Below are positions 7,963 through 38,100 of a stretch of 64,000 nt of DNA, one piece after another. This stretch comes from Ischnura elegans (Eukaryota; Arthropoda; Insecta; Odonata; Coenagrionidae). Positions within the stretch are counted from its first letter, which is position 1; every line of letters starts with the position of its first letter. The stretch is from positions 6,524,607 to 6,588,606 of the forward strand of contig NC_060258.1 in the NCBI RefSeq assembly GCF_921293095.1, written 5' to 3'. Under the pieces are notes generated by a model that saw only the letters and a list, made by a program, of their open reading frames with translations, did not search any database and had not been told where the DNA came from. The position numbers and the translations under genes are program-made.

Positions 7963-8703
7963 TGGGAATTTTCTTCTGTTCCTTGAGGGGGGGATTGGGA
8001 TTTCGTGGCCTTTTCTCTTAGAGATTGTTGAATTTTCGGGGCTCTCGATCGGCTGATCGTGGCGATTCCGTTCCGTGGCGTAGGCTGCTCTGCGTCATCT
8101 CTGGCAGGTTCACGAGTGAAAGATGGCCTCTATGCGGCAGTTGGGAGATCCTTTCATCGGCACCACGAGTCTACCGTACAACTCCTACTCGCATTGGGCA
8201 CCCTCTCTCTCTCTCTCGGGATCTCTCCACCAACTTTGTCTTCTCTGCCTCCCCACACTCCGCCTACTCTTAGGAGCGTTTTTTTCACTTGGAACCGCCA
8301 AAAAAATAGAAGCCCTTTTCCTCCGGTGCAGCACGTTATATAGCCATTGAGGGGAGGAAACACCAGGGAGGGAGGGGTCAGGGGAAAGAAAGGGATGATG
8401 CACTTTGGGCTGGACGGTCACTTCACCAAGGACACGGGGGGGGGACCACGTTTTTCTTCGTCTTAATAGTTCGACTTGAATACTTTAGGAGGGGGAGGGG
8501 AGAGCATTATACATCAATGTGGGGAGGAAAATAGGGAAACATCAAACGGGAACACAATGATTCATAATACACACTCAAAAACCCTCTTACACTCACTGAC
8601 ACATTCATACGAACACATATCTGAAGAAAAAAAACTGCCTTCCTTTACCTCGCACTCCCGTCTCATGCGTCACTATGTAAGCGGGCAAAATGCACCGGTT
8701 ACA
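7963..8703 (-). repeat. LTR (5' LTR in element orientation)
   Basis: This is the right copy of the LTR. It is highly similar to 5279-6024 with scattered small differences. The minisatellite begins directly after it. Confidence 0.8.
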
Positions 8704-10770
8704 GTACGTTCTCCTCCTTAGTTTCTTTTTCCTCCTTATTTCGTTTGCCTTCTTAGTACGTTTTCCTCTTAGTACTTTTTCATCCTTAGTACGTTTTTCT
8801 CATTAGTTCTTTTTCCATCTATTAGGCTTTCCTCCTTAGTTTTTTTTCCTCCTTAGTTCATTTTATTCCTTAGTACTTTTTTCCTCCACAGTTCTTTTTT
8901 CTTTTCTTACGTTTTCTTCTTAGTTCTATTTCCTCCTTAGTTCTTTTTCCTCTTAGTTCGTTTTCGTCCTTAGTACGTTTTCCTCTTTCAATCGTTTTCC
9001 TCCATTGTACCTTTTCCTCCTTAGATCGTGTTCCTCCTCAGTTCTTTTTCCTCATTAGTTCCTTTTCCTCCTTACTAGGTTTACCTCCTTAGTACGTTTT
9101 CCTCCTTTGTTTATTTTTCTCCTTAGTACGTTTTCCTTATGTGTTCTTTATCCTTCTATTCCATTCTCCTCCTTAGTTCTTTTTCCTCCTTAGTTCTTTT
9201 TCCTCCTTATTTCGTTTTCTTCCTTAATACATTTTCCTCCTTAAATCGTTTTCCTCCTTTGTGCGTTTTTCTCCTTAGTTCTTGTTCCTCCTTAGTTCTT
9301 TTTCCTCCTTAGTACGTTTTCCTCCTTAGTTCTTTTTCCTCCTTAGTACGTTTACTTCCTCCTTAGTTCTTTTCTTCCTTAGTTTTTTTTCCTCTTTAGT
9401 ACGTTTTCCTCCTTATATCGTTTTCCTCCATACTACCATTTACTCCTTAGAACGTTCTCCTCCTTAGTTCTTTTCCTCCCTTGTATTTTTCCTCCTTAGT
9501 ACATTTTCCTCCTTATATCGTTTTTCTCCATAGAACGTTTTCCTCCTTAGTACGTTTTTCTCCCAAGTACTTCGTCCTCCTTAGTTCATTTTCCTCCTTA
9601 GTTGTTTTTCCTGCTTAGTACGTTTTCCTCCTTTGAGCATTTACCTCTTTTGTTTTTTTTTCCTCCTTAGTTCGTTTTCCCCCTTAGTGATTTTTCCTCT
9701 TTAGTTCGTTTTCTTTTTTTGTTCTTATTTCTCCTTAGTTCGTATTCCTCCTTAGTACGTTATACTCTTTAGTTGTTTTTCCTCCTAAGTACGATTTCCT
9801 CCATACTACATTTTCCTCCATAGTTCATTTTCCTCCTTAGTACATTCTCCTCCTTAGCTTCTTTTTCCTCCTTAGTACGTTTTCCTCCTTAGTTCATTAT
9901 CCTCCTTTGTACTTTTTACACCTTAAATAGTTTTCCTCCATTGCATGTTTTCCACCTTAAATCGTTCCCTCCATAGTACGTTTTTTTACTAGTACGTTTT
10001 CCTCCTTATTTCGTTTTCCTCCTTAGTTCTTCTCCTCGTTTGGTCATTTTCCTCCTTAGTACGTTTTCCTCCTTGGTACGTTTTTCTCCTTCGTTCGTTT
10101 TCCTCCTTAGTGCGTTTTCCTCCTTAGTACGTTTTCCCCCTTAGTTCTTTTTCATCCTTAGTAAGTTTTTCTCATCAGTTCTTTTTCCTTCTATTAAGTT
10201 TTCCTCCTTAATTCTTTTTCCTCCTTAGTACGTTTTCCTCCAAAGTTCTTTTTTATTTTTTTAACGTTTTATCCTTAGATCTTTTTCCTCCTGAGTTTTT
10301 TTCCTCTTTAGAACGTTTTCCTACTTAAATCGTTTTCTTCCATAGTACGTTTTCTTCCATAGTTCTTTTCCCTCCTTAGTTCTTTTCCCTCCTTAGTTCT
10401 TTTTCTTCCTTAGTTCTTTTTCCTCCTTAGTTCGTTTTCGTCCTTAGTACGTTTTCCTAATGAAATCGTTTTCCTCCTTAGTACATTTTCCTCCTTCTTT
10501 CGTGTTCCTTTTTAGTTCTTTTATCCTCATTAGTTACTTTTCGTCCTTAGTAGGTTTACCTCCTTAGTACGTTTTCCTTCTTAGTTCATTTTTCTCCTTA
10601 GTACTTTTTTCTTTTTAATTCTTTATCCTTCTATTACATTTCCCTCCTTAGTTATTTTTCCTCCTAATTCGTTATCCTCCTTAATACGTTTTCTCCTTAA
10701 ATCGTTTTCCTCCATAGTACGTTTTGCATTTTAAAATGCATTCCTTCATAGTGCAATTTCTTCCTTATAA
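8704..10770. repeat. Minisatellite, about 17-bp unit TTTTCCTCCTTAGTNCK
   Basis: About 2.07 kb of tandem, imperfect units in which TTTTCCTCCTTAG is followed by TACG or TTCT, giving on the order of 120 copies. Both spellings recur throughout, with frequent point changes and small indels, so the array is not freshly expanded. The strand is strongly pyrimidine-biased. It starts immediately after the LTR at 8703. No coding potential was seen. Confidence 0.9.
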
Positions 10771-12170: not shown

Positions 12171-13505
12171 TCCATCTTCAATTTCCTTCTACCTCCTCCA
12201 CTTCCTTCTGCCTCCTCCACTTCCTTCTGCCTCCTCCACTTCCTTCTGACTCCTCCACTTCCTTCTATATCATCCACTCCCTTCCATCTCGTCCAATTCC
12301 TTTTACGTCGTCCACTTCCTTCTACCTCCTCAACTTTCTCCTACCTCCTCCATTTCCTTCTACCTCCTCCAATTCCTTCTGCCTCCTCCACTTCCTTCTG
12401 ACTCCTCCACTTCCTTCTACATCATCCACTCCCTTCCATCTCGTCCACTTCCTTCTACCTCGTGCACTTCCTTCTACCTCGTCCACTTCCTTCTACCTCC
12501 TCAACTTTCTCCTACCTCCTCCATTTACTTCTACCTCCTCCACTTCCTTCTGCCTCCTCCACTTCCTTCTACCTCCTCCACTCCCTTCTGACTCCTCCAC
12601 TTCCTTCTACATCATCCACTCTCTTCCATCTCGTCCACTTCCTTCTACCTCCTCAACTTTCTCCTACCTCCTCCATTTCCTTCTACCTCCTCCACTTCCT
12701 TCTGCCTCCTCCACTTCCTTCTACATCATCCACTCCCTTCCATCTCGTCCACTTCCTTCTACCTCGTCCACTTCCTTCTACCTCCTCAACTTTCTCCTAC
12801 CTCCTCCATTTCCTTCTACTTCCTCCACTTCCTTCTGACTCCTCCACTTCCTTCGACCTCCTCCACTTCCATCTACGTCTTACACTACCTTCTGCTTCCT
12901 CAACTTCCTTCTGCCTCCTTCACTTCCTTCTACGTGCTCCACTTCCTTGTACCTCATCTACGTTCTTCTACCTCCTTCACTTCCTTCTACTTCCTTCACT
13001 TCCTCCTACCTCCTCCACTTCATTCTACCTCCTCCACTTCCTTCTACCTCCACCAGTTCCTTCTACCTCCTCCACTTCCTCCTACCTTCTCCACCTTATT
13101 CTACCTCCTCCACTTCCTTCTACCTCCTCCCTTTCCTTCTACCTACTTCACTTCCTTCTGCCTGCTCCCCTTCCTTCTACTCCTCCACTTCCTTCTACTC
13201 CTCCACTTCCTTCTACTCCTCCACTTCCTTCTATGTCCTCCACTCCCTTCTACCTCCTCCACTTCCTCCTACCTACACCACATCCTTCTATCTCTTCACC
13301 TTCCTTTTACCTCTTCTCCTTCATTCTCCCACATCCACTTCCTTCTTCCTCCTCCCCTTTCTTCTATGACTTCCTCTTCTTCTCCCTCCTCCCCTTTCTT
13401 CTCTTTCCTCCATTTCCTTCTACCTCCTCCACTTCCTTCTACCTCCTTCACTTCCTTCTACCTCCTCCACTTTCTTCTACGTCCTCCACTTCCTTCTACC
13501 TCCCT
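12171..13505. repeat. Minisatellite, 19-bp unit ACTTCCTTCTACCTCCTCC
   Basis: About 1.33 kb of 19-bp units, roughly 70 copies. The variant CATCCACTCC...ATCTCGTCC marks positions 12271, 12423, 12613 and 12727, spaced 152, 190 and 114 bp apart (8, 10 and 6 units), so higher-order blocks have been copied. Because three 19-bp units make 57 bp, all three plus frames stay open over hundreds of bases. The resulting Leu/Pro/Ser-rich frames are artefacts, not a gene. Confidence 0.9.
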
Positions 13506-20125: not shown

Positions 20126-22979
20126 CCGGGGAAACTTTTATAAACGCATTGGTATCTAATTTTTATACTTTTGGTGGTCAGTCTTCAGTCTGAGTAATTA
20201 CCAAGGACATATTACATTCGTGGTCCGTCGTGAGGGGGTAGGGTGAGCAGTCCCAGATTATGAGGGTGCACTACCTGCTAGACACACGCCCGGGGTCGAT
20301 GGAAAAATATCTTCCCCGCTCATGTCCCGCACACTGTGGCAGAAAAATTTTGACGCTCCCCCAGTTAAAGATATGCAGCCACCGACTTTGTCCGCCGGGG
20401 ATGCAGATGTTGTGTTGACATTTAGTTATTCAATTTAGCAGCGATATAAGCAACTATATGTCGAATAAGCAGTCATGGAGAAAAGGCGGTAGTTATTCGA
20501 GCAGATATGAGTCGATCCCTGGGCAAGATAGGCCAACTAAATAATGCACAAAGCCTTTGGAAATGCTGTGATTTGGCGATGGGAGGCTTCTAAGTATGCC
20601 TCGCATCATCTGGAGGAGAAAACAGCGGGTCATCTTCATATGAGTAAAGGCAGGGGCCACGGTGATCAGTACAGCGACAATGATTTCAGTGCAGGCGTGA
20701 GAACGTTTACTTGAACGGCTGTAATACTGCGACGAGAAAGGAAAGGGGAAACAACCATATTATTATCCCGAGGAGTCGCCGTCTCTCCAACGTTAAATTA
20801 TCGCTCACGATGGAATTCCCTTGGGTAAAACATTCCGGAGGTAAAACTTGTCCCCCATTCTGATGTCCGGGAGGAGACTGCCCGAGAGGTTTACATGGCC
20901 ATCTGCGATAAAGTTTTAAAGATAGATATAATGGCGGAACAAATTGTCGCACAGCTCATCAGCGTCTGAATGCCGGCAGTTCAGGAACCACTTGTCTCCC
21001 AAAAATTCTTAGCATTTAGCGTTTTCGAAGTCTACCTTGTTCGTACTTCGCGGATGGTGGATAAACGAAATTGTCTATCGCGGTGGGCCTTAAGTTCATT
21101 TCCATTCTGCATTTCAAGGATGTATGCGTCCGAGAAATCGGATAAAGGTGCAATGGTTCTGGCAAAACACGGCATAGTGACACTTTTGTGACTGTGTCGT
21201 GTTCTGCAAGAATCCTGTTGCAAGGAGACAGACGACCCCATATGAAAGGCCTAGTGCCATTCAGATATAAAGACGAATATACCGAGTCGAGTGTTGCGGA
21301 GACTCGTGCATGTGCCAAACATCACGAGCCTTGAAATGCAGAATGAAAGACCACCAAAGAGCTACCAAGAATAGATAATTTTCTTTTTCAGCCATCGCCG
21401 AGCATGTATGGGGAAGGCCAATGCACATCGTGTACTTCGATAACTCACCACCAAACAGAAGCAATAATTTCCCCGGCTGATTGAAGAGGCTATTGAAATA
21501 GCCAAAACACCAAGCTTCAATAGGGAGGACAGCTACTCGCTCTCCAACGCCTCGAAGAAACTCTTTCCCAAACCAGCCATTTCCCATAGTTTGCCGTACC
21601 TTACCATACTCAAGCCTCATATAAGACTGCAAAACATCTGCATCCGTCATTTCAAACCTGAAGACGCCTGCAGCAACGCTGGCGAAACTATCGTTGAACG
21701 AGGAATCGGCACTGAGGGCAAGTCGGAAGCCAAGCTGCACCAAGAGGCTAATATTACTTGGACTGTTCTCTCCCTTTTACGGAAGCGGCTTTCTCCGCTC
21801 CTTGCTTGTTGGACCACAGCCAGTAGACAGGTGGGGGACTGCGCTGTCGGTTCGCTGCCTGTTTATAACTTTTGTTTTACTGCTGACATTTAACGTGCAT
21901 GATATACGTATGTGTATTACTAACATTCTACGGAAGACAACAGTGCATATCAATTTTCAATTGACCCCCTGGTTTGGAAGTTAGCAGAGGTTTGCGTTGT
22001 ATGCAACTCATCCGTTAATTTTAGTGGTATAAACAGCTTGTTTACGGCAAATTACTAGTGATAGATGTAGCTTTTTCATATCAAGATTGTAGATATAGGA
22101 ACGAAAACTACGGTAATGTCAAGCGCTCAAATTAGGGAAACTTGATTTTACGCGCATAAAACGGGTCCTTTTGGGGAAAAAAATTAAGAACTGGAAAAAT
22201 TATGAAGCCGAAGATTTTTTAATTACATGTTACAACACAGAAATGAATTCTCTTTCGTGTGCTTTTTCTTGCATTGAAGTTGATTGCTTCGTTTTGACGC
22301 TAAAGCTCCTCAAACTCGGGTATCTTGCTTTTTTACAGACTGTACATGAGCTGGAAAATGATGCAAGATCCTTTGAGAATAATGGTAATAGAATACACGT
22401 ATCAGGAGTTCACATTATCTCCAGATCGCCCCGTGATTAGGAAGAGGAAAATTCTAGAGCTCCTGAAGGAGAATGAAGAATGTAGTCCGAGGAAGTGCAA
22501 ATGGAGCATGCTATACCCGGGAACGGTAACGAGGAGGCTGACAAAGATGCATCATTCGAATCGATTGATGTAAGAGAACCGCATTCTTTCCAACACAAAT
22601 GAGACCTCCACTTCTACAGAAAAGGGGGAAATTTTAAATGAAGTGCAAGAGCAAACATGAGCAAAAAATTTCTGTTCTCGAGCGATTGCAACTTCTCTAA
22701 TCAAAGTTGAAAATATTTCTGTTGCTTTGCCCATCCCTGCCTGATTGTGATAATGACTCTATTGAAAACTTGGATTTATCTTTTTGAGACTGTATATGGA
22801 GAAATTCCTGAGAATAGTCAGAGTATTGGTATATTTTTAGTGAAAAACATAGTACCTGGGTGTAATGTACAATCCATCAGACATTGTCCAAGTGTCATGG
22901 TCCTTGTATGCAGGGACTGTACGTTAAACCTCATGCAGGCAAGCCTGATATTTTTACATGGCTGGGCACTTGGCGTACT
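20126..22979. other. Intergenic, no intact gene
   Basis: A GC-richer zone at 20640-21860 contains frames up to 160 residues on the minus strand without recognisable domains. A hammerhead-like motif lies at 21651-21700 (separate entry). At 22480-22800 short acidic stretches such as EEVQMEHAIPGNGNEEADK look like a decayed coding region of unknown origin. Confidence 0.4.
21651..21700 (+). other. Hammerhead-ribozyme-like core (solo copy 1)
   Basis: CTGAAGA (21658-21664) fits the hammerhead core CUGANGA. It is followed by a GCC...GGC stem-loop and then GAAAC (21684-21688). The bases flanking the core, AAC before and GTT after, can pair as stem I, and the cleavage-site triplet would be ATC (NUH). 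One extra base sits between the core and stem II. Family knowledge: Penelope-like elements carry such motifs. Confidence 0.45.
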
Positions 22980-23678
22980 TTAACCCGCCGTGACTCGCGC
23001 GGGGTGTCCCAGGCACCCCAGCGTCTTGTTTTGGTTAGAGTTCGTTTCGGGTCTAGTTTTATGGTCTCATCTTTTCAGTAGCTGAGTTTAGGGATATTTC
23101 CTAGCTGTCCTGGAAAATTGGTTAGTTTCTTTCCGTTTTCGGCCGAGATCAGACGCTTTTGTGAAGACAGTGCGCATCCCGTTGGAGCGAAATTTTCGAG
23201 TGTTGGTTTCATGCTTGAATGTGTGCCGTAAACTTTTTTGCGTTTACTTGTTTTTGTGTTCATTGGATCCTCTACTAAATACTGCCGCGAAGTATACTTC
23301 GTTCTTTTATTTGGTGAGTCTTTTCACTTACAATTATAAAATTTATCTTATTTTTACAATCATTATTTCGATACCTAATGCTTCATTACGTTTTATAAAT
23401 TTTCAACGCTTATTTCACCATTATTTTTCGTTACTTCATTATTTCAAAGGAGACTATACGCAATATTTCTTTTATTTTTCCATTTTAGGGAAGAATTTCA
23501 TCCCAAAATTCGTATAACTTTTTTCTCTTAGAAGTGATTGCTAGTGGGAAGCCTAGAAATTATCTAGAGACCTCGAGGTAAGTTCATGTCATTTTCAATT
23601 TCTGATAAATGAAAAATTTTAATTTTAGGAATTACTGAAAATCATTCAGAAACTTATATAAACTATATTTTCCCTTAG

Positions 23679-24893
23679 ATGACCTATTTACGATCAGAGA
23701 GGGACATAGAAACTGCTCTTCTGCTTTCCAGTGGACTATCCGAAGAGGAAGAATTTGATTCAGACACTGAATTCTCTTCAGCTTCAGCACAGGAATCGGA
23801 GCACGACACATGTAGCGATCAGGACATCAGTGATTCAGAGACTGAATATACAACTGTGACTAACGATAATTTTTTAACGGGCAAAGATCGAGTGACAAAA
23901 TGGAGTACCTCTGAGCCACGACGTAATGTTCGAACACCAGTTCATAACATTGTATCTCAGGCAGCTGGCTTCAAGGGAAATAAAAATGATATAAATTCTC
24001 CGCTAGATTGTTTTGACATAATTTTTGATGAGAACATCTGTCACATAATTGTAAATAGTACAAATATCAAACTTGCAGAAAAGGCGCAAAATTATTCTCG
24101 AGAAAGAGATGCTAAGCCAACAGACGAATCTGAAATCAGATGTCTCATTGGTCTGCTTTTTTATTTAGGGGCAAACAAATCAGGTCGCCAGAACTTGAAA
24201 GATATGTGGGATCAAGATGGTTTGGGTGTGGAGATATTTAGGGCATCAATGAATTACCAGAGGTTTAAATTGCTGCTCCAATGTCTAAGATTTGATGACA
24301 TCAGAGACAGAGAAAATAGGAGAAAAACTGATAAATTGGCTCCGATAAGAAAGGTATTTGAAATGTTTATCCGTAAATTTGAACAATTGTACAACATCGG
24401 TGAGTTTGCTACAGTAGATGAGCAATTAGTTCCTTTTCGGGGTAGATGTTCTTTCCGCCAATATTTACCAAACAAACCCGCAAAGTACGGCATAAAAATA
24501 TTTGCACTTGTAGATGCTACTGTGTATTACACGCAAAAAATGGAGGTTTACCTAGGTATTCAGCCAGATGGTCCTTTTAGAGTAGACAACAGCCCAAAGG
24601 AGGTTGTAAAAAGGATTGTCAGTCCAATTTTGGGAACGGGGAGGAACATTACAGTGGACAATTGGTTCATGAGTGTGCCACTTTTGGAAGATCTACTTCT
24701 AAGAAAACTTACTATTGTGGGGACCATTAGGAAGAATAAGGCAGAGCTTCCCCATGAAATTGTTTTTGTCAAAAATAGAGATGAGTATAGTAGCATTTTT
24801 CTCTTCAGGAAAAATATGACTCTTGTGTCATATATTCCTAAAAAGAAGAAAAACGTCCTCATGATTTCGAGTATGCACAGCGATATTAGCATT
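23679..24893 (+). pseudogene. piggyBac transposase PB1, N-terminal two thirds
   Basis: This is the 5' part of a DDE/D transposase that excises and reinserts DNA at TTAA sites. The acidic N-terminus (residues 1-65) is followed by the DDE core. The first catalytic Asp is at residue 247 (ATVDEQLVPFRG) and the second at 327 (ITVDNWFMS), a spacing of 80 that is normal for the family. The coding sequence is open up to the 12-bp duplication at 24882-24893, where the PLE begins; read-through gives only Arg then stop. It continues at 33134 in the same frame, so the gene was apparently whole until the PLE landed. The start is supported by an acceptor-like TTTTCCCTTAG immediately before the ATG. Confidence 0.88.
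24882..24893 (+). repeat. 12-bp target-site duplication of the PLE, left copy
   Basis: GATATTAGCATT here is repeated at 33122-33133. Flanking bases differ on both outer and inner sides, so the duplication is exactly 12 bp. It lies inside the PB1 coding sequence (Asp-Ile-Ser-Ile). Confidence 0.9.
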
Positions 24894-24927
24894 AGATAAA
24901 AAGGTTGAGCTCTACGGCCTCAAGGTC

Positions 24928-25976
24928 AAATGATGAAAGAAAACACTCCAATGGCCGTAACAAGGGACCTCGTCACAGGTGTAAACCAAAACACTGTGTG
25001 GTATGCTGGAACGGGAAAATTCGCAGCAGTGACCAACCCCAGCCTCTCAACCGGAAACCCTTCACAAACACACGATCAACAGTGTAGAAACCTTCGCGAG
25101 GGTTTTGTGGGACCTCGCTAAGGCTGCTCACGTTGAAACCAATCACTCGCTTAACTATGAACGAACCTTCGCGAGGGTTTTGGGGGGGCCTCGCTAAGGT
25201 TGCTCAAGTTAAGAAACACACACACACACAATCACACAAGCAACACTTACTCCGTGGGTATAAACTCCGGGAGAATATGCTCAAAACTGAGCGATGGAAC
25301 TGCCACCTGGACGGGAAAAGCGTACCGGTTTCGGAATCCAAGATTCCCTTCTCAACGCACCTGAGGACAAAGCTTCACTTCAACAAGGTTGAGTGGCGAA
25401 AAAACAATAGACACCGCTGAAATATATGTAGAGGAGAGTGTAGGGGAGGGGAATGGTTGTGGTGTAGAGGGTGGAAGAGGAGAGGGGGAAATTGTGGTTG
25501 GACGTAAGGTATGGGGGGGGGGGCGGAATAGGAGGGGAAGAGTTAACGGACGGAGGTAGAGAAGGGGGGGGGGGGAAGGGGGAAAGGGACGGATTAACTT
25601 GGACGGAGGGTGGGGGAACGTGACGTAAGGATGACCGTTACGGAGTGGAAAATAACTGAGGGCGTAACGTTCTCAGTGCAAAAGAGAAAATAGAGAAGAA
25701 TATGGGATGGGACCTTCATCACTATTAAGGAGTTTCCCTTTGTTTTTATAAATGTAAATGCTCTCGTATGCGTCGAGGAAGTGTTTTGATGTTTGTTTCA
25801 ATAGAGTTAGGTTGTCTAGGGTAATTTCGTGGTCTGTGTCCGTAAGGTGTTGTGCAATGCTGGATTTCTCAGGTTTATTGTTTTTGTAATATGAGAGGTG
25901 TTCTTTGTATCTGGTGAGAATGTTGCGTCTTGTTTGACCTATGTAGGAAGCTTGGCAGGAATTACAATTAATCTGA
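24928..25976 (-). repeat. PLE inverted left arm
   Basis: This is the reverse complement of the PLE 3' region, 1049 bp against 1048 bp; the one clear length difference is a 7- versus 6-base G/C run. It includes antisense of most of the endonuclease domain and the G-run-rich 3' UTR. TTAA at 25209-25212 is the intact, empty counterpart of the site filled by PB2 in the right arm. Confidence 0.9.
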
Positions 25977-25990
25977 ATTTACAAGGTCAA

Positions 25991-27625
25991 ATGATGAAAG
26001 CTGATAAAGGCAACCTTGTTGTCATACTTGACAAAGTTACGTACTACGATAAAGTCACTACTTTATTATCGACAGGGCCATATTCCGAGATAACCAAAAA
26101 CCCTATTAGGCAATTAATTTCTCAATTTAAATCAGTACTCAAAGATTGCCCTGCTTTAATAGACAAAAACACTTCTTTCAAACTGAATGTTTCCAATCCT
26201 ACCCTCCCTAGGTTATATTGCCTACCCAAAGTCCACAAGGACAATTGCCCAATGAGACCCATTGTATCAGGGATCGACTCCCCAACCTATTTGTTGTCTA
26301 AATGGTTAGTTGCCCAGTTTGCACAATTCAACTTCCAGAGTCCGCATTCCATTAAGAACAACGTAGACTTTGTTAACAAAACTAAAAACTTTATCTTTTC
26401 TGAAGGCGAGATCATGGTTTCTTTTGATGTAACGAATTTATTTCCAAGTGTACCTATTGACACAGCCATTCATTCACTAAGAACTTGGCTTCAATCCCTA
26501 TCTTTAGATCAGAAAACCATAGACGAGTATATACGCCTCACGAATTTAGTAATGAACCAAAATTATTTTACCTTTAAAGGGAAATACTACAAACAAAATT
26601 TCGGTACTACTATGGGTAATTCACTCTCGCCATTTCTTGCCAACATCTTCATGACGCATTTCGAAACAACCTTCAAGAAGAAATTCTCCTACTTCCCTTC
26701 CATTTATTTACGATATGTGGATGACATTTTTGCCGTATTTGACACAAAGAAATGCTCACTGAATACTTTCCTAGACAACCTAAACAGCCTTTTCCCTTCC
26801 ATAAAGTTCACCATAGAAACTGAGATCGATAACTCAATTCCCTTCCTCGATCTCTTCCTAACACGATCCGAAAACAAAATCGTTTTTGACATATACAGAA
26901 AACCCACCAGCACAACAAATTATATACACAACTACTCATTTGTTCATCCAAGCCATAAATTTGCTGCCTTCCATTCCCTCATTAATAGACTTTTAAACAT
27001 ACCTCTTAGTAAACCAGCATTCAACAAAGATTTACTCTTCATTAAAAATATTGCCAAACAGAACGGATTCTCTACTTCTTTAATCGACCACATCTTGAAA
27101 AAACATGAATTCAAACACTTAATCAACAACTCAACCATACACAAAAAAGACCTATCAAAAAGATTCATCAAACTCCCGTTTTACCCCACCATAACAAAAG
27201 GTCTAGACAAAGTCTTCAACTCAATTAACACTACAATCACGTACACCAACGACTACAAACTAAAACAACTTTTAGGCACCAGTAAAGATAAAATACCTCT
27301 TCAAGAAAAATCCGGCATATATCAGATTAATTGTAATTCCTGCCAAGCTTCCTACATAGGTCAAACAAGACGCAACATTCTCACCAGATACAAAGAACAC
27401 CTCTCATATTACAAAAACAATAAACCTGAGAAATCCAGCATTGCACAACACCTTACGGACACAGACCACGAAATTACCCTAGACAACCTAACTCTATTGA
27501 AACAAACATCAAAACACTTCCTCGACGCATACGAGAGCATTTACATTTATAAAAACAAAGGGAAACTCCTTAATAGTGATGAAGGTCCCATCCCATATTC
27601 TTCTCTATTTTCTCTTTTGCACTGA
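25991..27625 (+). CDS. PLE reverse transcriptase / GIY-YIG endonuclease, N-truncated
   Basis: The frame is open for 544 residues from the in-frame ATG at 25991; it also extends upstream to 25898, but that part is antisense arm sequence. The body starts at the ADKG motif (MMKADKGNLVVILDK), so the N-terminal part of a normal PLE protein is missing. RT landmarks in order are PTYLLSKWL, FPSVPIDTAI, GTTMGNSLSPFLANIF, the catalytic YVDD (26714-26725) and IPFLDLFLTR with YRKPT. The endonuclease has GIY (27314) and YIG (27353), the Arg helix (RRNILTRYKEH), the His pair (AQHLTDTDH) and the Glu (DAYESIYIY), all expected active-site residues. It would copy RNA by target-primed synthesis in the nucleus. 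No stops occur within it, but truncation makes an active protein unlikely. Confidence 0.9.
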   Translation: MMKADKGNLVVILDKVTYYDKVTTLLSTGPYSEITKNPIRQLISQFKSVLKDCPALIDKNTSFKLNVSNPTLPRLYCLPKVHKDNCPMRPIVSGIDSPTYLLSKWLVAQFAQFNFQSPHSIKNNVDFVNKTKNFIFSEGEIMVSFDVTNLFPSVPIDTAIHSLRTWLQSLSLDQKTIDEYIRLTNLVMNQNYFTFKGKYYKQNFGTTMGNSLSPFLANIFMTHFETTFKKKFSYFPSIYLRYVDDIFAVFDTKKCSLNTFLDNLNSLFPSIKFTIETEIDNSIPFLDLFLTRSENKIVFDIYRKPTSTTNYIHNYSFVHPSHKFAAFHSLINRLLNIPLSKPAFNKDLLFIKNIAKQNGFSTSLIDHILKKHEFKHLINNSTIHKKDLSKRFIKLPFYPTITKGLDKVFNSINTTITYTNDYKLKQLLGTSKDKIPLQEKSGIYQINCNSCQASYIGQTRRNILTRYKEHLSYYKNNKPEKSSIAQHLTDTDHEITLDNLTLLKQTSKHFLDAYESIYIYKNKGKLLNSDEGPIPYSSLFSLLH

Positions 27626-28085
27626 GAACGTTACGCCCTCAGTTATTTTCCACTCCGTAACGGTCATCCTTACGTCACGTTCCCCCACCCTCCGTCCAAG
27701 TTAATCCGTCCCTTTCCCCCTTCCCCCCCCCCCCTTCTCTACCTCCGTCCGTTAACTCTTCCCCTCCTATTCCGCCCCCCCCCCCATACCTTACGTCCAA
27801 CCACAATTTCCCCCTCTCCTCTTCCACCCTCTACACCACAACCATTCCCCTCCCCTACACTCTCCTCTACATATATTTCAGCGGTGTCTATTGTTTTTTC
27901 GCCACTCAACCTTGTTGAAGTGAAGCTTTGTCCTCAGGTGCGTTGAGAAGGGAATCTTGGATTCCGAAACCGGTACGCTTTTCCCGTCCAGGTGGCAGTT
28001 CCATCGCTCAGTTTTGAGCATATTCTCCCGGAGTTTATACCCACGGAGTAAGTGTTGCTTGTGTGATTGTGTGTGTGTGTGTTTC
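27322..28085 (+). repeat. PLE right arm, part 1 (to the PB2 insertion)
   Basis: This is the sense counterpart of 25213-25976. It runs from within the endonuclease coding region through the stop at 27625 and a pyrimidine-rich 3' UTR with long C-runs, ending in a GT microsatellite where PB2 enters. Confidence 0.9.
27939..27978 (+). other. Hammerhead-like motif in PLE 3' UTR
   Basis: A degenerate core TTGAGAA is followed by one extra G, a perfect 6-bp hairpin (GGAATC TTG GATTCC) and GAAAC. Flanking GCG and CGC can pair as stem I with a GTA cleavage triplet. The architecture matches the solo motifs at 21651 and 53431, but the core departs from CTGANGA at two positions, so activity is doubtful. 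Confidence 0.4.
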
Positions 28086-30109
28086 CCCTTTCCGCGCGGC
28101 TGGACGTGAATTCACGTCCAGCGATTCCTAGCTAATGGCGGCCCGACGTGAATTCACGTCCAATACCCGGCGGCTTTAATAGCGGCACCACTGCGTCCAA
28201 GTCGTTCGGAGGGGCTCTTGCAGGCTCACAGCCGTCAGTTACAGCCCTACCATCGCTTGGGGAAGGTCAGTTCTTCTTGCTGGGGTGAATATTACGGTCG
28301 AAGACGCTTTCACTTGGAGGTACGTAAACATTTTTTTTTCCTTGTTCCATTTCATTTTCTGTTGTAATTATGCGTGATTTGCCTTTTATTTACCTAATTG
28401 TGCGTTGATATATGTGTTATAGATATGTATTTTGATAACTAGGTTTATGTTTTTCAAGTAAAAAGAAAATGAAAATTTTCAGTTTATTTTTTTTTTCGAC
28501 TTTTACGGCGATAAATTTTCGTTATCCAAAATATTCTTCGAATATTCTTCACGTACTAGCGATGAAATATGGCGATGAAGCATTGAATGCATTTTTTATC
28601 ATTTATTGTGCATAGATCCTATTTTTATTTTAAACACCCATGTACCGTGTATTCATTATTTCTTCTTATTACTTCCTACACAAGATACTGCAGCAGCAAA
28701 GAATTTATTGAAGAATTCAGGAGCTGTAAACATCCCGATCCTGTGTATTTATCAACTTTGTTTCCTTCGTCTGCCTTCAATTTGGGTGAGTTAATGAATC
28801 ATTATGTTATACTCTTTTTGCTTCAAAATATTTTTTTGCGAAACGTAGCTATTTTTTATTTTTGCTCATGTAACATTTTCATTTATTTTGTTTTTCAAAT
28901 GACAGTTATGCGCTCCTAAATTTTTATATTTAATCCTCGGACCAGTGCATTACAAATTCATGCATAAATTGTTAATTTTTCTTTGTAAACTCGTACCTAT
29001 TACTAGTAAGTATAAGCACATATTGCCTTCATTACTGAAGGTTGAAAGTGTTGTTGCTGTTATTTGTGATTAATTACCACTGTCATAATGCTGGAAACAT
29101 AAAAAATAAGACACGATATCAAAGAACATTTTGGTATTCTTGTTAAAATTTTGCGGTCCTCGCTTGCTGCGTAACAAAATATCTTTGTTCATTACGAATG
29201 AAAATAACTTTGTGTTCTTGGTATCTGCATAATCAGGAAATCAAGAAAAAGAATTATCCGTGGGAGTGTTGTCATTCCCGTTAGAGATTTGGCTGTTCAG
29301 AAAAGGATGTTTTGAAAGTTGGAGTTGAAGTGGTCGCTAGCAATATCTTTAGTAGTCTTCGACATTTCACTCTTTTCAGATACCTTTCACTCTCTCCGTA
29401 TATTCTTTTGTTTGATCAGTTGCCGGGGTGCCGCGCGACCTTCTTGGCCCTGCTTTCGGAAGTTTCGCAGACACAAAGAGGGTTTATTGCCACGTGAAAA
29501 GCATTAGGGATGAGGGTGTTGGGGCGGAAGAACCCTCAAGCAGGATGGCGTCAGAGGATATTTTCTTATTATGAAGCAGAGTTCAATGGTCTACCGACTG
29601 GCTCGGGGATTCCCTCTGAGAATATTTCGGAATGCATGTCATCTCCCAGCGGTAAATAGCTCTGCCCATGCTCTGTGTAAAACGGGACGGCCGCTGGTCT
29701 CCGGGTACCTGCAGGTTCAACCCTTATAATCCTCCGCAGGCAAACACCCTACCCCGGCCTATGACAATGGGAGTGGAGTAGATCTGAGTTATTCTTCGGC
29801 ATTTAATAGCATAGCGATACAAGCTAAATGTTTTCTAATGAATGATACACATACCATATTTAGAAAGTTTTTTTAAAATGATGGAAAACGACACCAAACT
29901 CGCCATAGTTTTTTTTAAATAAACAAAGATTTTGCTATATTCGCTAATTTATTCATTCATCATTGAACCAATATGTTACTAAAATCAGGTCTTTCTTTTT
30001 TTTAATCGAGATCTTATAAATAGTGGAAAATTTACATTATTATCCAAAATGTTTTTTTAGTCCATAAAAGTATGCCATCATACTATGCTTTCATTTATCA
30101 TGTTTCAGA
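28086..30109 (+). other. PB2 5' region and putative 5'-UTR intron
   Basis: There are 2 kb between the left end and the ATG. A GAG/GTACGT donor at 28319-28320 and the TTTCAG acceptor at 30107-30108 suggest a 1.79 kb intron. A GC-richer block at about 29400-29780 contrasts with the AT-rich surroundings and may be a further inserted repeat, but no ends were found. Confidence 0.45.
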
Positions 30110-31993
30110 ATGGTTAAAACTCGGGGAGGAAAAAAAAGGGGTGTGGAGCAATCCACCCTTAGGGAGAGTCCTCAACCCTCGACTTCTCAAGTCAGTCCCC
30201 CGCGTACTCCTGATCCTCAGGATAATACGGAGGACATTCCTCCACCGAAGTCGAGGAGAATGGCAGCTTCGGGAGTAATAACCTCCACGGAGGAACTCCG
30301 GAGGCTGCTAGAAGAGGAAGATGACAGTGAGGAAGAAGATAGTACCTTCTCCGATGAAACGGATTGCAGCGGGAGTGATAACGATGATTCGGAGGAGGAA
30401 GAGGATCCCTCGCAGGGTAATGACTTGCTATCCCCAGATTCAGGCCTCCCGAGTACCTCTTCGCAAGCCACCACTGCCAGACTAAGACAGACCACCTACA
30501 CCTGGACTTCTGGCAGACCGACAATAGACCCCATTCCATTTACCCAGACCCCTGGTATGACTGCTTCACCTCAAGGAGACCAACCCCCCGACTTTTTTAA
30601 TCTTTTACTGACTGACAGTATCCTCGAATTGACTGTGAGAGAGACAAATAGATTTGCCGACGAGCTGAAGGCGCAGAATGTAGCCCCGAAAGCAAGGATT
30701 GTTAAATGGAAATCCTTGACGAAAGAGGAGTTCCTTGTATTTTTAGGCGTCCTGTACCACATGGGAACAATCAGATTAAATAGGATATCGGACTTCTGGA
30801 GCAAGGACTTCCTATTTAACTTTCCTTGCTTTCGGGGATGCATGAGCCGTGACAGGTTCTCGGGTATTTTGCAATGTTTGCACTTTGCGAAAAACCCAGA
30901 ACCTGGTCAGCCTCAGCCAAATGACCGACTATATAAAATTCGCCCCCTAATAGACCTCTTTCATGACTCAGTAAGTAATGCCGTGACTCCGACGCAAAAA
31001 CTCTGCGTTGATGAGTCTATGCTTCTCTGGAGGGGGCGACTTGTTTTCCGAATGTTTTTGAAGGGGAAGAAACATAAATATGGAATCAAAATTTATATGC
31101 TAACGGAACCTTCCGGTTTAGTTCTCAGATTTATCGTTTACACAGGATCTAGTGACGCTGATGTAGGAGGCCGAGGCCACGTTGACACTGTTGTGAATAA
31201 GCTAATGGAGGGTCACCTTGATGCTGGCCATTCATTATTTATGGATAATTATTACAACAGTGTCAATTTGGCCCACCAACTACTGGAGCGGAAGACCTAT
31301 TGTACCGGAACTTTGAGAACTAACCGGAAGGGTAATCCTCCCCAAATTAATTCAAAAAAATTAAAGAAGGGGGAAGTTGTGAATGCCTACACTGATGACG
31401 GTGTCTGCGTCATGAAGTGGAAAGACAAGAGAGAAGTACTGATGATCAGTTCGCAGTATAGCGGCGAAATGATCGATGTCCCCCGCCGAAGGGGAGGGGG
31501 AACCATACCCAAACCTGAGGCAATTGCAAGATACAACGAGGCAATGGGGGGCATTGATCATACTGATCAGATGATGTCCTATTATCCAATTGAGCGAAAA
31601 ACTCTCAAGTGGTACAAGAAGTTGGGCATTCACATCTTCCACCTTCTCCTCCTCAATAGCTATTATTTGTATAAGAAATTACATCCCAGATATTCATTTT
31701 ATGACTTTCGGCTTTCGGTAATCAAATCTTTACTTTCACCTGCTTTCACTCGCCCTTCAGGCCCTTCCCCTTCAGTCCCTTCCAGAGGCGTAGGCTTATC
31801 AAGGCATTTCCCTCACACCCTTCCAATTGACGAAAAAAGCAAGAGGAACAGAACGGTGCAAAGAAGGTGCCGGGAATGCCAGAAGAAGGGGATAAGAAAA
31901 GACACAACGTTCTTTTGCCCTGCTTGCGAGGGACACCCTCCCCTCTGCGTCGACACATGTTTCACGGCCTTCCACGAAAATATGCGGTTGTAA
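30110..31993 (+). CDS. piggyBac transposase PB2, full length (627 aa)
   Basis: This is a cut-and-paste DDE/D transposase that acts in the nucleus at TTAA sites. The start ATG follows an acceptor-like TGTTTCAG. The N-terminus is basic, followed by an acidic Ser/Glu-rich stretch (residues about 60-115). The catalytic residues are all present: D301 (LCVDESMLLWRG), D379 (LFMDNYYNS), and D483 and D486 (GGIDHTDQMM). The 78, 104 and 3 residue spacings match the family. SYYPIERKTLKWYKKLGIHIF follows as usual. A C-terminal zinc-binding Cys-rich domain (CRECQKKG, CPACEG, CVDTCF) is complete. There are no internal stops or frameshifts. It may be functional; whether the element can still move is uncertain because the left TTAA is missing. 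Confidence 0.93.
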   Translation: MVKTRGGKKRGVEQSTLRESPQPSTSQVSPPRTPDPQDNTEDIPPPKSRRMAASGVITSTEELRRLLEEEDDSEEEDSTFSDETDCSGSDNDDSEEEEDPSQGNDLLSPDSGLPSTSSQATTARLRQTTYTWTSGRPTIDPIPFTQTPGMTASPQGDQPPDFFNLLLTDSILELTVRETNRFADELKAQNVAPKARIVKWKSLTKEEFLVFLGVLYHMGTIRLNRISDFWSKDFLFNFPCFRGCMSRDRFSGILQCLHFAKNPEPGQPQPNDRLYKIRPLIDLFHDSVSNAVTPTQKLCVDESMLLWRGRLVFRMFLKGKKHKYGIKIYMLTEPSGLVLRFIVYTGSSDADVGGRGHVDTVVNKLMEGHLDAGHSLFMDNYYNSVNLAHQLLERKTYCTGTLRTNRKGNPPQINSKKLKKGEVVNAYTDDGVCVMKWKDKREVLMISSQYSGEMIDVPRRRGGGTIPKPEAIARYNEAMGGIDHTDQMMSYYPIERKTLKWYKKLGIHIFHLLLLNSYYLYKKLHPRYSFYDFRLSVIKSLLSPAFTRPSGPSPSVPSRGVGLSRHFPHTLPIDEKSKRNRTVQRRCRECQKKGIRKDTTFFCPACEGHPPLCVDTCFTAFHENMRL

Positions 31994-32211
31994 ATATTTG
32001 TACATAATAATTGCAATGATGGAAACTGTATTTTTTTATTTGTGTATAAATAATATGTTTTTTTTGCTCTGCAGTCTGATGAAGTTGTAATTTCTGTTCT
32101 ATTTTTACGTTTTTAAATTTGTAAATAGTATTGTAAAAGGATTTTGTGCTTGTTTTGAATTTGTGCGATTGCATTTTGTGTATATTATTTATTTGTTTAG
32201 CGCTATGTAAA

Positions 32212-32217
32212 AATAAA
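32212..32217 (+). promoter_or_regulatory. Poly(A) signal of PB2 transposase
   Basis: AATAAA lies about 220 bases after the stop codon in T-rich 3' UTR sequence. Confidence 0.5.
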
Positions 32218-32837
32218 TTATGCTTGTTTTAAAAGTTTTTTTTCATTTATAAATCCTGCTAGAAACTGTGTTAGTTCTTGCTGCAAAATTTCGTAACGAA
32301 ATAAAAAAAAAATATTAGATTCAAATGTCAAAATAGCATACAGCATATTTCATTCTATTATTTCACAGAACATAAGAACGAGTGCGAGAAATAGCTATTT
32401 AGTCGTTGTAGTAACCGTTATAGCAGATCGCGTTTTTAGCAGAAAAATTTCAGCATTTGCAAAATAATTACAAAATTGATAAAGTATGACTATGGAATTT
32501 TAAATCAATATAAAAATAAGACTTCATATTGCATAACTATATTTGAAAGGCTTTGCATTTTTTCCCAGCAATAGGGGTAGCTAAAAACTTAGGAGAGATA
32601 TATGGTCGCAAAGGGGCGATGATACTACCCTGCATAACTCAAAGCGGCCTCAAGCGTATGGCTGAGGACGTGAATTCACGTCCGTTGAAAAAATTTAAAT
32701 TTTTAGCATTAAAAAATTTTTTTTTTTTTAATTCCTGAAGAATAATTGTTTCTTAGGTACAGTATTACTGAAAAACCCAAAAAAATGCATTCAGTCAGGG
32801 GAAAGCCATACAAAAAATAGCCTCCGCGTTGAAAGGG

Positions 32838-33121
32838 TTAACTTGAGCAACCTTAGCGAGGCCCCCCAAAACCCTCGCGAAGGTTCGTTCATAGTTAAGC
32901 GAGTGATTGGTTTCAACGTGAGCAGCCTTAGCGAGGTCCCACAAAACCCTCGCGAAGGTTTCTACACTGTTGATCGTGTGTTTGTGAAGGGTTTCCGGTT
33001 GAGAGGCTGGGGTTGGTCACTGCTGCGAATTTTCCCGTTCCAGCATACCACACAGTGTTTTGGTTTACACCTGTGACGAGGTCCCTTGTTACGGCCATTG
33101 GAGTGTTTTCTTTCATCATTT
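32838..33121 (+). repeat. PLE right arm, part 2 (3' terminus), with tandem hairpins
   Basis: This continues the PLE after PB2, from the TTAA at 32838-32841 to the 12-bp duplication. Two tandem hairpins lie at about 32849-32885 and 32924-32960. Each pairs a CCTTAGCGAGG strand with CCTCGCGAAGG across a loop of C and A residues, the first with a longer AACCTT start. The inverted arm carries the same pair at 25090-25200. Confidence 0.85.
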
Positions 33122-33133
33122 GATATTAGCATT
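33122..33133 (+). repeat. 12-bp target-site duplication of the PLE, right copy
   Basis: GATATTAGCATT matches 24882-24893. The PB1 reading frame resumes directly after it. Confidence 0.9.
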
Positions 33134-33772
33134 GATCCGACCACAGGTGAGAAAAAAAAACCGGAAATGATATCCTTTTACAACTCTACGAAAGGTGGTG
33201 TAGATACGGTAGATGAAATGTGCGCTACCTATAGTGTTGCCAGAAACACAAGGAGATGGTCTATGGTGGTTTTTTATCATTTGATGAATACATTGGGCAT
33301 CAATGCGTTCGTTATTTTCAGGAACTTACATCCTGAAATTAAGACAAATAGAAGAACATTCCTCCGAGAAATTGCTAAAGGCTTAACAAAACCTTTTATT
33401 GCCCAGAGAAGTACACAAAAAAATTTGCCAAAAGAATTTAGGAAAACGTTAGAGAAATACGGAGAGCCATCAATATCGGAGCCACAGGAAAAGCGGAGAA
33501 GAGGAAGTGGAAGGTGTGTAATTTGCCCCAGAGCCAAAGACATAAAAACTAAATTGTTTTGTGAAATTTGTGAAAGGAATATGTGTGCATCGCACATGTT
33601 GAAAGTATGTAGTGAGTGCTTGGAAAATATTAAAAAATATTTTCATGAAGGAATTCGTGTAAACGATTTTTTCGTGTCATTCATCAGCCCTTCCAAATGT
33701 CAACTGAGGCTATACCAACTTGCTACAATTCGTAAATATTTTCTGTCTCATTTTACACATAATAATTTCTAA
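33134..33772 (+). pseudogene. piggyBac transposase PB1, C-terminal third
   Basis: This is the continuation of the PB1 transposase after the insertion. The third catalytic region GGVDTVDEM (first Asp codon at 33203) carries both Asp residues expected at this site. The ARNTRRWSMVVFYHLMNTLG segment typical of the family follows. A C-terminal Cys-rich domain (CVICPRAKD, CEICERNMC, CSECLE) is the zinc-binding module that reads the element ends in characterised piggyBac proteins. The frame is open to the stop at 33770-33772. The combined protein would be about 617 residues, close to the family norm. It is inactive here because the gene is split by 8.2 kb. Confidence 0.88.
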
Positions 33773-34394
33773 AGTTGATCAAAATGCAACTATCCCAAAG
33801 GAGCATATGAATATTGATCAATAATAGCGAGGATTTCGCAGGGAAATTTTTCTGGTAACTATCGTGATGTCTGCATGCACAAAGTAACGAAGACAAATCT
33901 TGTTTAGAGAAGTAAAAATTCATATTTGAATTGCCGAATGGAGAGCAAACTTCTCTTTTACTGGGATACAGAGACCGCCAGAACAAAAGGATTTATTGCA
34001 GGGTAAACCTCTCAGCAAAGAGAGTAGGGAAGACCTTCACCCAGATCCTTTCCGGCCTAAGCCCAAAACATTTCTGAAATCCGAATGACCCTGACTCAGC
34101 TGCGTATAAAGGAAAGAGAATCTTTCCCCCTCCGTCTACCGCCGCTTCATTTGTGAAACCTTTTTATTGCTTCCAGTCTTGGGTGCGTAGGGGGGTTTTC
34201 ACACTTCTTGCTGCGGTATTTGCCATACCCTGTCCTTCCCCAAGCCTGGCGTGAGTCATGACGAAAATTCGAGATAGTCGGTCATAACATGACATACTAG
34301 GGCACAATGAATGGCGTGAGTAAGAACCCGTGTAGGGGGTTCTTGTGCGTGAGAAATAAACAACGGAAGGAGTAGTCCAGATTTTCCGATCGTT

Positions 34395-34960
34395 GGTATA
34401 GTCTATCCAAACAGGGAAGGCGGGTAAGAGATTAGGCACCGCTCGAGGTCCAACCATAGCTTCCTACCTGCCATCCGCCAAACGATAGCCGGGGTCTGGT
34501 AGACCGCTTTTGCTATAATTAGTCATGAATTGCACTCCACTCTGAAATATTACTGCATATAAATAAGCGTAATTTGTATTTTTTTTACAGTTTTGATTTC
34601 CACGTGTAATTTCATGAAAAAAGTGTAAACAGGACGGAGCTATGTCAAGTAGTTATGCAACACTTAGTGGTTTTTTTTGCAACCGCTATGTAAGTGTTAC
34701 ATAACTAATGGACGTAGCTCCGTCGTATAGAGACTCTTTCTTCATGAAATTATACGTAGAAATCAAAGTTATAATAAAAATTACATATCACGCTTACTTT
34801 ATGAGATAATTTTTCCGAGTGGAGTGCGATTCGTGACTCATTATATCGAGCGTGATCGACTGGACCCCGGGTAATTTTTGGCTGACGGCAGGTACGCGGT
34901 TATCGTTGGGCCCTCGATCCATGCCAAATCTCTTACCCATCCTTCCTTATTTGAACAGAC
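34395..34960. repeat. Long imperfect palindrome inside PB1 3' region
   Basis: Arms of about 270 bp meet near 34680. The innermost match is CACTTAGTGG with CCGCTATGTAAGTG. Further out, GACGGAGCTATGTC pairs with GACGTAGCTCCGTC, GCACTCCACTC with its complement, and GCCGGGGTC with GACCCCGGG. It resembles a fold-back MITE, but no target duplication could be set. No coding frame is present. Confidence 0.75.
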
Positions 34961-35630
34961 TACAGGTCCACCCTCGATTTCCGAAAAGATACAGCATTTC
35001 CCAGGCAAATTTGGAATTTATAGACTAGAAGATTATTCAGAATTTTCCCACTTGAGAGAGCCAGTGATTGAGATAAAATTCTTCAAAAATACTTTTCAGA
35101 ATCATTATTAACAACTTAGAATACAATTTGATCGTTATAACAAATGTAAAAAACCCTAATCATCAAATCATTTCCATTAGCTCAAAAGCAGGCAAATCGC
35201 AAGACTCGCGGCCGGTTTTTCCATCAAATAATCAAAATTCAATTCATATAAAATATTGAAACGAAGTAACGTATAAAATTATTTAGCCAGGTAATGCAAA
35301 TTGTTAATTTATGTGAACAAAATTATTATTGCTTTAATTAGAATACAGCCAATATGTAAGAATGTTTACAAATTGTATCAACGTCCGCATCTTTTGTACT
35401 TCAAATTCTTTTGAAAATTAACAAAATTACAACAAAATATCCCTATGCGACAATTATTCATATCAAACAAACAAATATTATCAGGAGTTATGAAAGGATA
35501 CTTAAATAGCAAAAAATAAGGCAAAATACAATTAAACAATTGAAAAAAGCGAAAAAAACGAGTGGGGTGTCAGAAACACCCCACGCGAGCTCTCACGTTC
35601 GTATTTAGGGCGCGAGTCACGGCGGGTTAA

Positions 35631-38100
35631 TAGTTGTGAGAATATTTTTCAAACATGTATATTTATTCTATGTATTTTCCAAAATTGAGAAGTGCATTTT
35701 CAACCATTTTACTTATTAGCCATGTAAAAATATTATTTAAATGTACCTTCAACAAATCCATTGATTGTGTCAATTCAAGGTTCTGTAATTTCATAACACT
35801 CCTGCCGAAAACTACATAAATTTAAAATAATTTTTCTTGATGTGTATTTGACAAGTTTATAATATAAACATTATAAATTTAAATATACCCCACATTTGTG
35901 AAATAACATTGAAAAATCCAAAAAATTTGTACATCTTAAAAAATCACAATTTACATCTTAAAATTTGTGAATCGCGGGCAATGGAACTCCAAAAATTATT
36001 GCTAAATTTTTAAACAATTTAATTTAAATTTAAACAAAGCTTGAAAATAGTGTACGTAATTAATAATATGTTTTTCTAGTGTTTTTTATCATTTAAATGA
36101 ACAGTGCAGCTCAAATGCGAAAAATATTTGCTTTTTCTGGGGAAATATTACCTCGCACCAAAAGACAACAGATCCGCCCAATGTGACATTTATGTCACAG
36201 CCTGTATCTCGGAAACTACATAACTGATCAACGTAATATTTTCAGAATGTAGTAAAAATGAGACCCTTACCATTCCCCTAGAATATGAATTGTAAATATA
36301 AAAAAAAAATTGGGGGGATCCAGGTTAACCACATTTCCGTTACCTCCAGGTAGCAGAGAGAATATAGCTATTGTTTAACAAATAATACAATAACAGAAAC
36401 GAACGAGTAACAAATGCTAATGCCGAAAATAGAGAAAAAAGTAAAATTGTGAAACATAAAAAGTAATAAAAAAACCCAAACACATTTATCAAATGGAAGA
36501 TTGGACAAATAAAGAGCTATTTAAAAAAATATGCCCTAGATATACGATAAAACCCAAAGAAAGGAGGCGTCACAAAGGCATGAAATAGGAATAGCTATAT
36601 TTCTTATCAAGACAACTGGTAACATGTTTAACCATTATATTCACTTAAATCCTTGAAAACCAAGCAGCAATCCTGAGGATAAGGAGACATTTACTATTGC
36701 TTATTAATAAGAAGATACCTACTTCCCGTCAACTGAATACTATACAAAGGATATGTGAATGTTGAAAATATATACGTGCATGAATGACTGCAATGATCTT
36801 CTCTAACGCCAGTGAAAATTTGAAAACGACCAACTACAACAAAAATGTACTAAGGTCACAAACATGTAGGAAAATGAATCTAAGAACCTAATTACTTAAT
36901 AACGACATTTCTTAAATGCCTTCCAACTGGTAAAAATTGAAAAAAATCCCATCTTAACCATTGTATGTCAAGTATGACAAGATTGTAAATTTATATTTTG
37001 CATCACATTTAAATGTACACCATCTTTGAAATTAATAATCTTTGACGAATATAGTGTTATGCCTACTACAAAATGTTATGCCTACATCATTATAATAGCA
37101 AACTACAGGGAAATGTCTCTCAAGTGAATGGTTCAAACAAGGTGAGACCAATGAACCAAAACAAACTAATTTTTATCAAAGGGCTATACAAACATGAGTA
37201 CATCTGGCAAAATATGATTATAAAATTGGAAAGAGCTTCATATGTTGCAAATAGATTTATGTGTACGATGGCTTTCAGATAAACTGAAGGATTACATTGG
37301 TAAGCCAAAATGGTACATTCCTTCAATTTACTTATAGCGTAAATGGGATTCAAAGTGATCTATAATTAAAAATACAAATACCATGGTGTCGGAAACATGA
37401 AATCAACAAAAATGTCTGAGTATAATCATAAGATATGTGTTACGATTGCACTAAACACACGAGTAATTAAGTTAACCAAAAAAAACTGAGAGGCTTAAAG
37501 AAAATAAATGAATATGAACAAAATTTTCATCTTCAGAACTGGCTCCATCACAATCTCCAAAGTATATCAGGGCAAATTCATCTCTGAAACAGAAAATATA
37601 AATTAATGGAATGAAAAGTAGTGCAATCACAATCAAAATGCAATGTCAATATAAGGTCAGTCTTCATAGTGAGATGAAATATGACTTCCATTTACAAGAG
37701 TTCAATGGCAGTATTTATAAGCAACAATTATCAAATATCTTCCAACAAACCCATGTTCTACAAATATCTTTTATTTTAGAAGTGAAATATGTTGGAAGAC
37801 TTTCACTATTGTTTGGAATTCACGTATGAATCACTGGATTGCTCTATCATGGATTTTAATATGGGCTCTCTTCAATTTCCTTATATTATTTTATCTTTAA
37901 CTTCGATATTTATCCATTAGATTAGTTTGTTAGTTTTGAAGTCACTTTCTTAAACTTATGACACATAAGATCTTCAATACATGTTATCTTTTGAAAAGAA
38001 ATCTGCATCTTGGAATACCGATAGTAGAATGTTGGAATAAAATAAATTGCATTTAAATATTCTAATATTACAAAACCCCACTACCATTAAATCAAAGTAC
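35631..38100. other. Intergenic or intronic, AT-rich, no gene
   Basis: The sequence is A/T-rich with only short chance frames. Later exons of the minus-strand ankyrin gene could lie here, but I could not identify one. Confidence 0.4.

Follow-up and report, generated by a model that had tools for sequence, protein, structure and literature searches.

How does a Penelope-like element (PLE) that lies in its target as two inverted copies come to carry its short tail at only one of its two outer ends? This question is raised by a nested locus at positions 22980-35630 of a 64,000-nucleotide stretch of Ischnura elegans contig NC_060258.1 (the whole stretch is called the window hereafter), in which an inner piggyBac element (PB2) lies inside a PLE and the PLE lies inside the transposase gene of an outer piggyBac element (PB1). 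Nested transposons are common, and this nest is unremarkable as such; of greater interest is the one-tail pattern, together with the build of the PLE as a twin. All 34 head-to-head PLE insertions that were read and have a target duplication carry exactly one tail, and the tailless end stops near one common point. A first-pass annotation of the window had described the three-level nest, which is borne out by the sequence of all junctions in the assembly; it mentioned neither the double-copy build of the PLE nor the tail at a single end, nor the TTAA lacking beside PB2.

Twin structure of the Penelope-like insertion

The 12-bp duplication that had been reported inside the PB1 transposase codons is present as two copies of GATATTAGCATT, at 24882-24893 and 33122-33133. 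This word occurs only twice in the window, where 0.05 occurrences are expected and none of 100 shuffles contained two copies. A PLE does lie between the copies, as the annotation had it, but that reading was incomplete, the insert being a head-to-head double copy. The parts of PB1 and of the PLE are as follows.

22980-35630, plus strand: PB1, the outer piggyBac element, TTAA to TTAA (21-nt inverted ends, split transposase domain)
23679-24893, plus strand: first part of the PB1 transposase, 405 amino acids (aa) (open reading frame; Pfam DDE_Tnp_1_7 profile positions 1-283)
24882-24893, plus strand: left copy of the PLE target duplication GATATTAGCATT (repeated word)
24894-33121, no strand: PLE insertion, a head-to-head double copy with PB2 inside (inverted arms, genome matches)
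24894-24925, minus strand: PLE tail of 32-34 bp, confined to the left outer end (absent at the right end)
24926-25976, minus strand: PLE left arm, which repeats the element's final 1050 bp in reverse complement (alignment to the right arm)
25977-25996, plus strand: filler of 20 nt at the inner PLE junction (25982-26000 equals 24921-24939 at the left end, a 19-nt identity)
25997-27625, plus strand: PLE right arm, a 5'-truncated reverse transcriptase / GIY-YIG-like frame (Pfam RVT_1, E 2.1e-14)
27626-28085, plus strand: PLE right arm, 3' region preceding PB2 (arm alignment)
32838-33121, plus strand: PLE right arm, final part with the tailless end (arm alignment, end comparison)
33122-33133, plus strand: right copy of the PLE target duplication GATATTAGCATT, whose initial GA could equally be element sequence
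33122-33772, plus strand: last part of the PB1 transposase, frame unchanged (open reading frame; Pfam DDE_Tnp_1_7 profile positions 295-349)

The PLE consists of two 5'-truncated copies, with both 3' ends toward the target and the truncated 5' ends meeting centrally. Alignment of the left arm with 27322-28085 plus 32838-33123 showed no mismatches and one gap over 1051 columns. The right arm is the longer, sense copy and starts within the reverse transcriptase; other genome copies of the PLE match only from 25997 onward, beyond the filler. The reverse transcriptase domain, the arms with their short target duplication and a tail of 32-34 bp, inside the 30-40 bp range, point to a Penelope-like element. 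The GIY-YIG domain scores below the Pfam cut-off (E 0.0041, 17.8 bits against 22.6); both motifs, GIY and YIG, can be seen in the translated frame. In a search for a full-length element, meant to place the start sites in the reading frame, seven loci matched from the 25997 point, and four of these gave an upstream translation. One diverged relative at 70%, L065, is open over a long stretch in that region, where neither a start codon nor a relation to the pseudo-long terminal repeats (pLTRs) was established.

One tail per two-ended insertion

The PLE of the window is fully readable: its arms differ by no substitution, its target is known from sister copies of PB1, and both outer ends and the inner junction can be read. 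Tails were therefore counted across the genome, which comprises 1,722,721,009 bases in 110 contigs. The 3'-end motif was found at 307 places at up to two mismatches, of which 100 were listed, all exact and from C1 to C11 (0 and 1 with the reversed-pattern control). The tail motif was found at 241 places; the 100 that were listed all matched it exactly, and its control gave 0 and 0.

Within the list of 100 end motifs, neighbours less than 6 kb apart form 19 pairs. All 19 face each other, and none is tandem or back to back. These pairs were chosen without regard to tails, and reading of both ends showed exactly one tail in every pair, including five in which the tail deviates from the exact motif and was noticed only on reading. 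If the start site were chosen independently at each end, at most half of the pairs would be expected to have one tail, and the chance of 19 out of 19 is about 2 in a million by simple arithmetic. Further candidates were added by other routes, among them an end motif facing a tail motif; those found through a tail motif are biased toward at least one tail. The resulting 37 head-to-head candidates, the window included, comprise 35 with one tail, two with two tails and none without a tail. A flank word of 9-15 bp is shared by the two sides in 34 of the 35 one-tail candidates, the exception being L131/L132 (33 words were found by script and that of L138/L139 by eye).

Comparisons of sister arms within insertions showed that they are very alike. 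Indel placement aside, their differences are mostly changes seen in no or one other insertion. An origin of the two arms from different RNAs was considered and set aside: in only one case, position 2371 of L085, are both letters common, and this position is terminal, so that the letter may come from the target. One RNA, or several RNAs from one source, would both fit the sister arms.

Two regions of the PLE 3' part can fold. Two tandem hairpins of the form CCUUAGCGAGG...CCUCGCGAAGG lie at 25066-25212 on the minus strand and also in the right arm, and their folding is far stronger than that of shuffles (z -6.11, 0 of 200 shuffles). A stem, UUACGGCC/GGCCGUAG, surrounds the inner start site, the putative origin of the tailless end, at 24894-24962 on the minus strand. 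It is kept in the diverged copy L060 with changes on both sides and is disrupted in other copies, for example L061 and L055. Over the final 69 and 119 nt of the element, folding is not clearly more stable than in shuffles (z -1.18 and -1.31), and no claim is made for this stem.

Order of the three insertions

The TTAA-flanked ends assigned to PB1 proved to be perfect inverted repeats: TTAA followed by CCCGCCGTGACTCGCGC at 22980-23000 is matched by its reverse complement at 35610-35630 over 21 nt at 100%. PB1 thereby has both marks of a piggyBac element, TTAA beside inverted terminal repeats and a DDE_Tnp_1_7 transposase, here in two pieces. The reading frame (...SMHSDISI) runs up to the first copy of the duplication and restarts in phase at 33122, reading ...SIDPTTGEKKKPEM; both the open reading frames and the single Pfam domain in two pieces agree with the earlier statement that the frame resumes in phase. 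The closest solved protein to the left piece is the piggyBac transposase 6x67 (E 3.4e-63). PB1 resembles the piggyBac of Trichoplusia ni (6x67/6x68) in its transposase and in the TTAA at both ends, and differs from it in being split by the PLE.

The genome contains 31 further PB1 matches, 30 of them at 96-99% identity over a 194-base query and one at 79%; 29 of the 31 were fetched for comparison. In all 29, the BLAST alignment continues through the PLE site with nothing inserted, so the uninterrupted copies and PLE-empty sites that had been predicted do exist. Junction letters were read in 27 copies (L025 and L033 excepted). A single GATATTAGCATT is present in 25 of these, L037 has GATATCAGCATT, and L038 has lost part of GATATTAGCATT. 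The window PB1 is about 1-2% different from the other copies, and its joined flanks align to single copies at about 98-99%. Judged by these alignments, the two PB1 halves belong to one family and not to unrelated parents. The longest open frames of the other copies range from 179 to 616 aa, whereas the two parts in the window add up to about 617 aa. The right part of PB1 also contains an inverted pair at 34578-34781 with 49-nt arms that are 84% complementary; its matches to microRNA families are weak and sub-threshold.

The order PB1, then PLE, then PB2 is fixed because other PB1 copies cross the PLE site and because the sister arm of the PLE keeps the empty PB2 site; the duplication of PB1 codons accords with it. 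Thus, the strict order proposed in the annotation stands. Its further description of the locus as a relative dating system goes too far. The amounts of change appear to agree loosely with the insertion order, but they use different yardsticks, and gene conversion between the inverted arms could hide changes.

The inner piggyBac element

PB2 had been placed in the right arm of the PLE, and comparison of the arms shows it in this arm only. Its features are as follows.

28086-32837, plus strand: PB2, the inner piggyBac element, 4752 bp, with ends CCCTTTCC.../...GAAAGGG and no left TTAA
30110-31993, plus strand: PB2 transposase frame of 627 aa without interruption (Pfam zf-Tnp_2 and DDE_Tnp_1_7, the latter at E 1.2e-90; piggyBat transposase 9c0f, E 4.7e-68)
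32838-32841, no strand: TTAA to the right of PB2, the sole survivor of the expected pair (junction reading)

The empty PB2 site is uninterrupted in the left arm, with its TTAA at about 25209-25212, and reads GTTTC-TTAA-CTTGAG both there and in the relative L079. The left PB2 junction in the window reads GTTTC-CCCTTTCC and is short of exactly TTAA. All four close PB2 copies have TTAA on both sides, as expected of the family, whereas the window copy has it on the right side only. The simplest account is a loss of 4 bp during or after insertion. PB2 resembles piggyBat (9c0f) in its transposase, its TTAA target and its uninterrupted frame, and the window copy differs in having no left TTAA.

Comparison of PB2 with the nearest fetched copy showed four mismatches and one gap over 4229 columns. 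Full-length frames of 627-628 aa are present in the window copy and in four others, and these four are 99.5-99.9% identical to the window copy over about 4230 columns. From these sequences, PB2 may still be active in Ischnura elegans. An internally deleted form, in which bases 1-200 are joined to about 1057-1891 of the query, occurs at 22 or more places in the genome (40 of 120 candidates were scored) and is a possible non-autonomous derivative. The palindrome GGACGTGAATTCACGTCC occurs three times, whole or mostly, near the PB2 ends (28096-28162 and 32660-32684) and is a candidate transposase binding site.

Other features of the window

Two observations lie outside the nest. A 374-aa frame at 9-1133 contains many C2H2 zinc-finger-like repeats in 84-bp tandem units, and long tandem arrays with units of 17/34 bp and 19 bp occupy 8703-10725 and 12183-13503.

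Proposed mechanism of the two-ended insertion

The locus was formed by three ordered insertions; the PLE was probably primed from both ends of its target, with a different start site at each, and its complementary DNAs (cDNAs) were probably joined head to head. PB1 inserted first, at TTAA. A PLE ribonucleoprotein would then have cut the two strands of the PB1 transposase gene with an offset of about 12 bp. Each cut end would have primed reverse transcription of PLE RNA, the outer start site giving the end with the tail and the inner start site the tailless end. Head-to-head joining of the two 5'-truncated cDNAs, through a short filler copied from a template, and filling-in of the 12-bp offset would have completed the PLE insertion. 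PB2 inserted last, at a TTAA of the PLE right arm, and its left TTAA was probably lost in the process or later. We infer the double-strand cutting, the priming at both ends and the end joining from the arrangement of the insert, and steps of this kind have partial precedents. Frangieh et al. 2024 (PMC11167929) report that the protein of an anole PLE cuts both strands in vitro and extends them, and that reverse transcription starts from two adjacent internal sites, the tail being the stretch between them. The further steps that complete an insertion are described there as 'yet to be validated experimentally'.

Several observations weigh against priming from both ends with a different start at each. 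In vitro, the two strands are reported to show no apparent difference in where synthesis starts (PMC11167929). Within the genome, L131/L132 is one-tailed and has no duplication. The two-tail candidates, L116 and L140/L141, also have no duplication, and L140/L141 spans 9 kb on C13; both are probably not single insertions, because they share no flank word. At least two insertions, L089 and L093, are one-sided, with a tailed 3' end, a 5'-truncated end joined to the target and shared words of 12 bp. Thus, a second cDNA is not always visible. Among 20 loci read, 12 are in head-to-head pairs (L077-L085, L087, L091, L095), two are one-sided, and six are singles placed by one end (L086, L088, L090, L092, L094, L096).

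The one-tail pattern favours a separate start on each target strand, the two being non-equivalent, and speaks against fold-back copying. In the latter scheme, proposed in the spirit of PMC3846280, one target end primes a cDNA, the end of which then turns back and uses the first arm as template. Inverted arms follow directly from such self-priming, which also suits the near-equal arm lengths of some pairs (L077, L078) and the close likeness of sister arms, and in PMC3846280 the preferred model is self-priming, starting from palindromes where the arms meet. However, fold-back copying repeats the first end, so the tail or its absence should recur at the second end; two tails or none are thus predicted, which conflicts with the 34 of 34 duplication-flanked insertions that have one. 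Self-priming appears quite unlikely on this count.

A single tail would also be expected if the second end began on an RNA that a ribozyme or nuclease had cut between the start sites, the tailless end then being the 3' end of that RNA rather than the result of a choice of start site. RNA-seq read ends do coincide with the start sites in the text of PMC11167929 available to us. However, Rfam detected no hammerhead, only three chance-level matches at E up to 5 in 22900-35700, with the proviso that short PLE ribozymes may escape its models, and at gathering scores it found nothing in the window. A hammerhead in the pLTR is common among PLEs but was not treated as obligatory. The anole element also started internally in vitro, and ribozyme cleavage was not needed according to the same source. 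We regard a cut RNA as unlikely. A misassembly that produced the nest or the inverted arms is highly improbable. Long near-identical inverted arms do endanger assembly in general, and the nest is known here from assembled sequence; yet the window contains no N, the assembly ioIscEleg1.1 is described in the accessible text of PMC9975421 as PacBio HiFi with a contig N50 of 13.1 Mb, and the duplication, the reading frame and the empty site agree to the single base.

Comparison with known Penelope-like elements

The Ischnura PLE resembles the Poseidon PLE of Anolis carolinensis (PAc), as presented in the available part of PMC11167929, in its reverse transcriptase and GIY-YIG-like region, in the 30-40 bp tail that some ends carry, in two ends that fit two start sites and in AT-rich targets. 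In the Ischnura PLE, however, the tail is paired, with one per two-ended insertion with duplication, whereas no apparent strand difference in start site is reported for PAc. PAc was studied in vitro; the Ischnura PLE is known here from sequence alone, and no hammerhead was found in it. The Penelope families of Adineta vaga share with it head-to-head inverted pLTRs, a tail at one pLTR and duplications, of 8-10 bp compared with mostly 12-13 bp in Ischnura. The account of Adineta vaga by Arkhipova and colleagues 2013 (PMC3846280) differs in calling the tail optional and in favouring self-priming. The one-tail pattern agrees with the published remark that, of the inverted ends, one bears the tail. 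A count of tails per insertion was not found in the parts of the PLE literature searched; older Penelope papers lie outside it, and an earlier description of the pattern may therefore exist.

Two-ended PLE integration could be strictly asymmetric, with both internal start sites used in each insertion, one per target strand, a proposal for which we see even chances. If it is true, integration would proceed as though a dimeric ribonucleoprotein held out to the cut ends both sites of a single template, or of two templates that are identical, and the tail would be a fixed mark of one end of the insertion, not an optional one.

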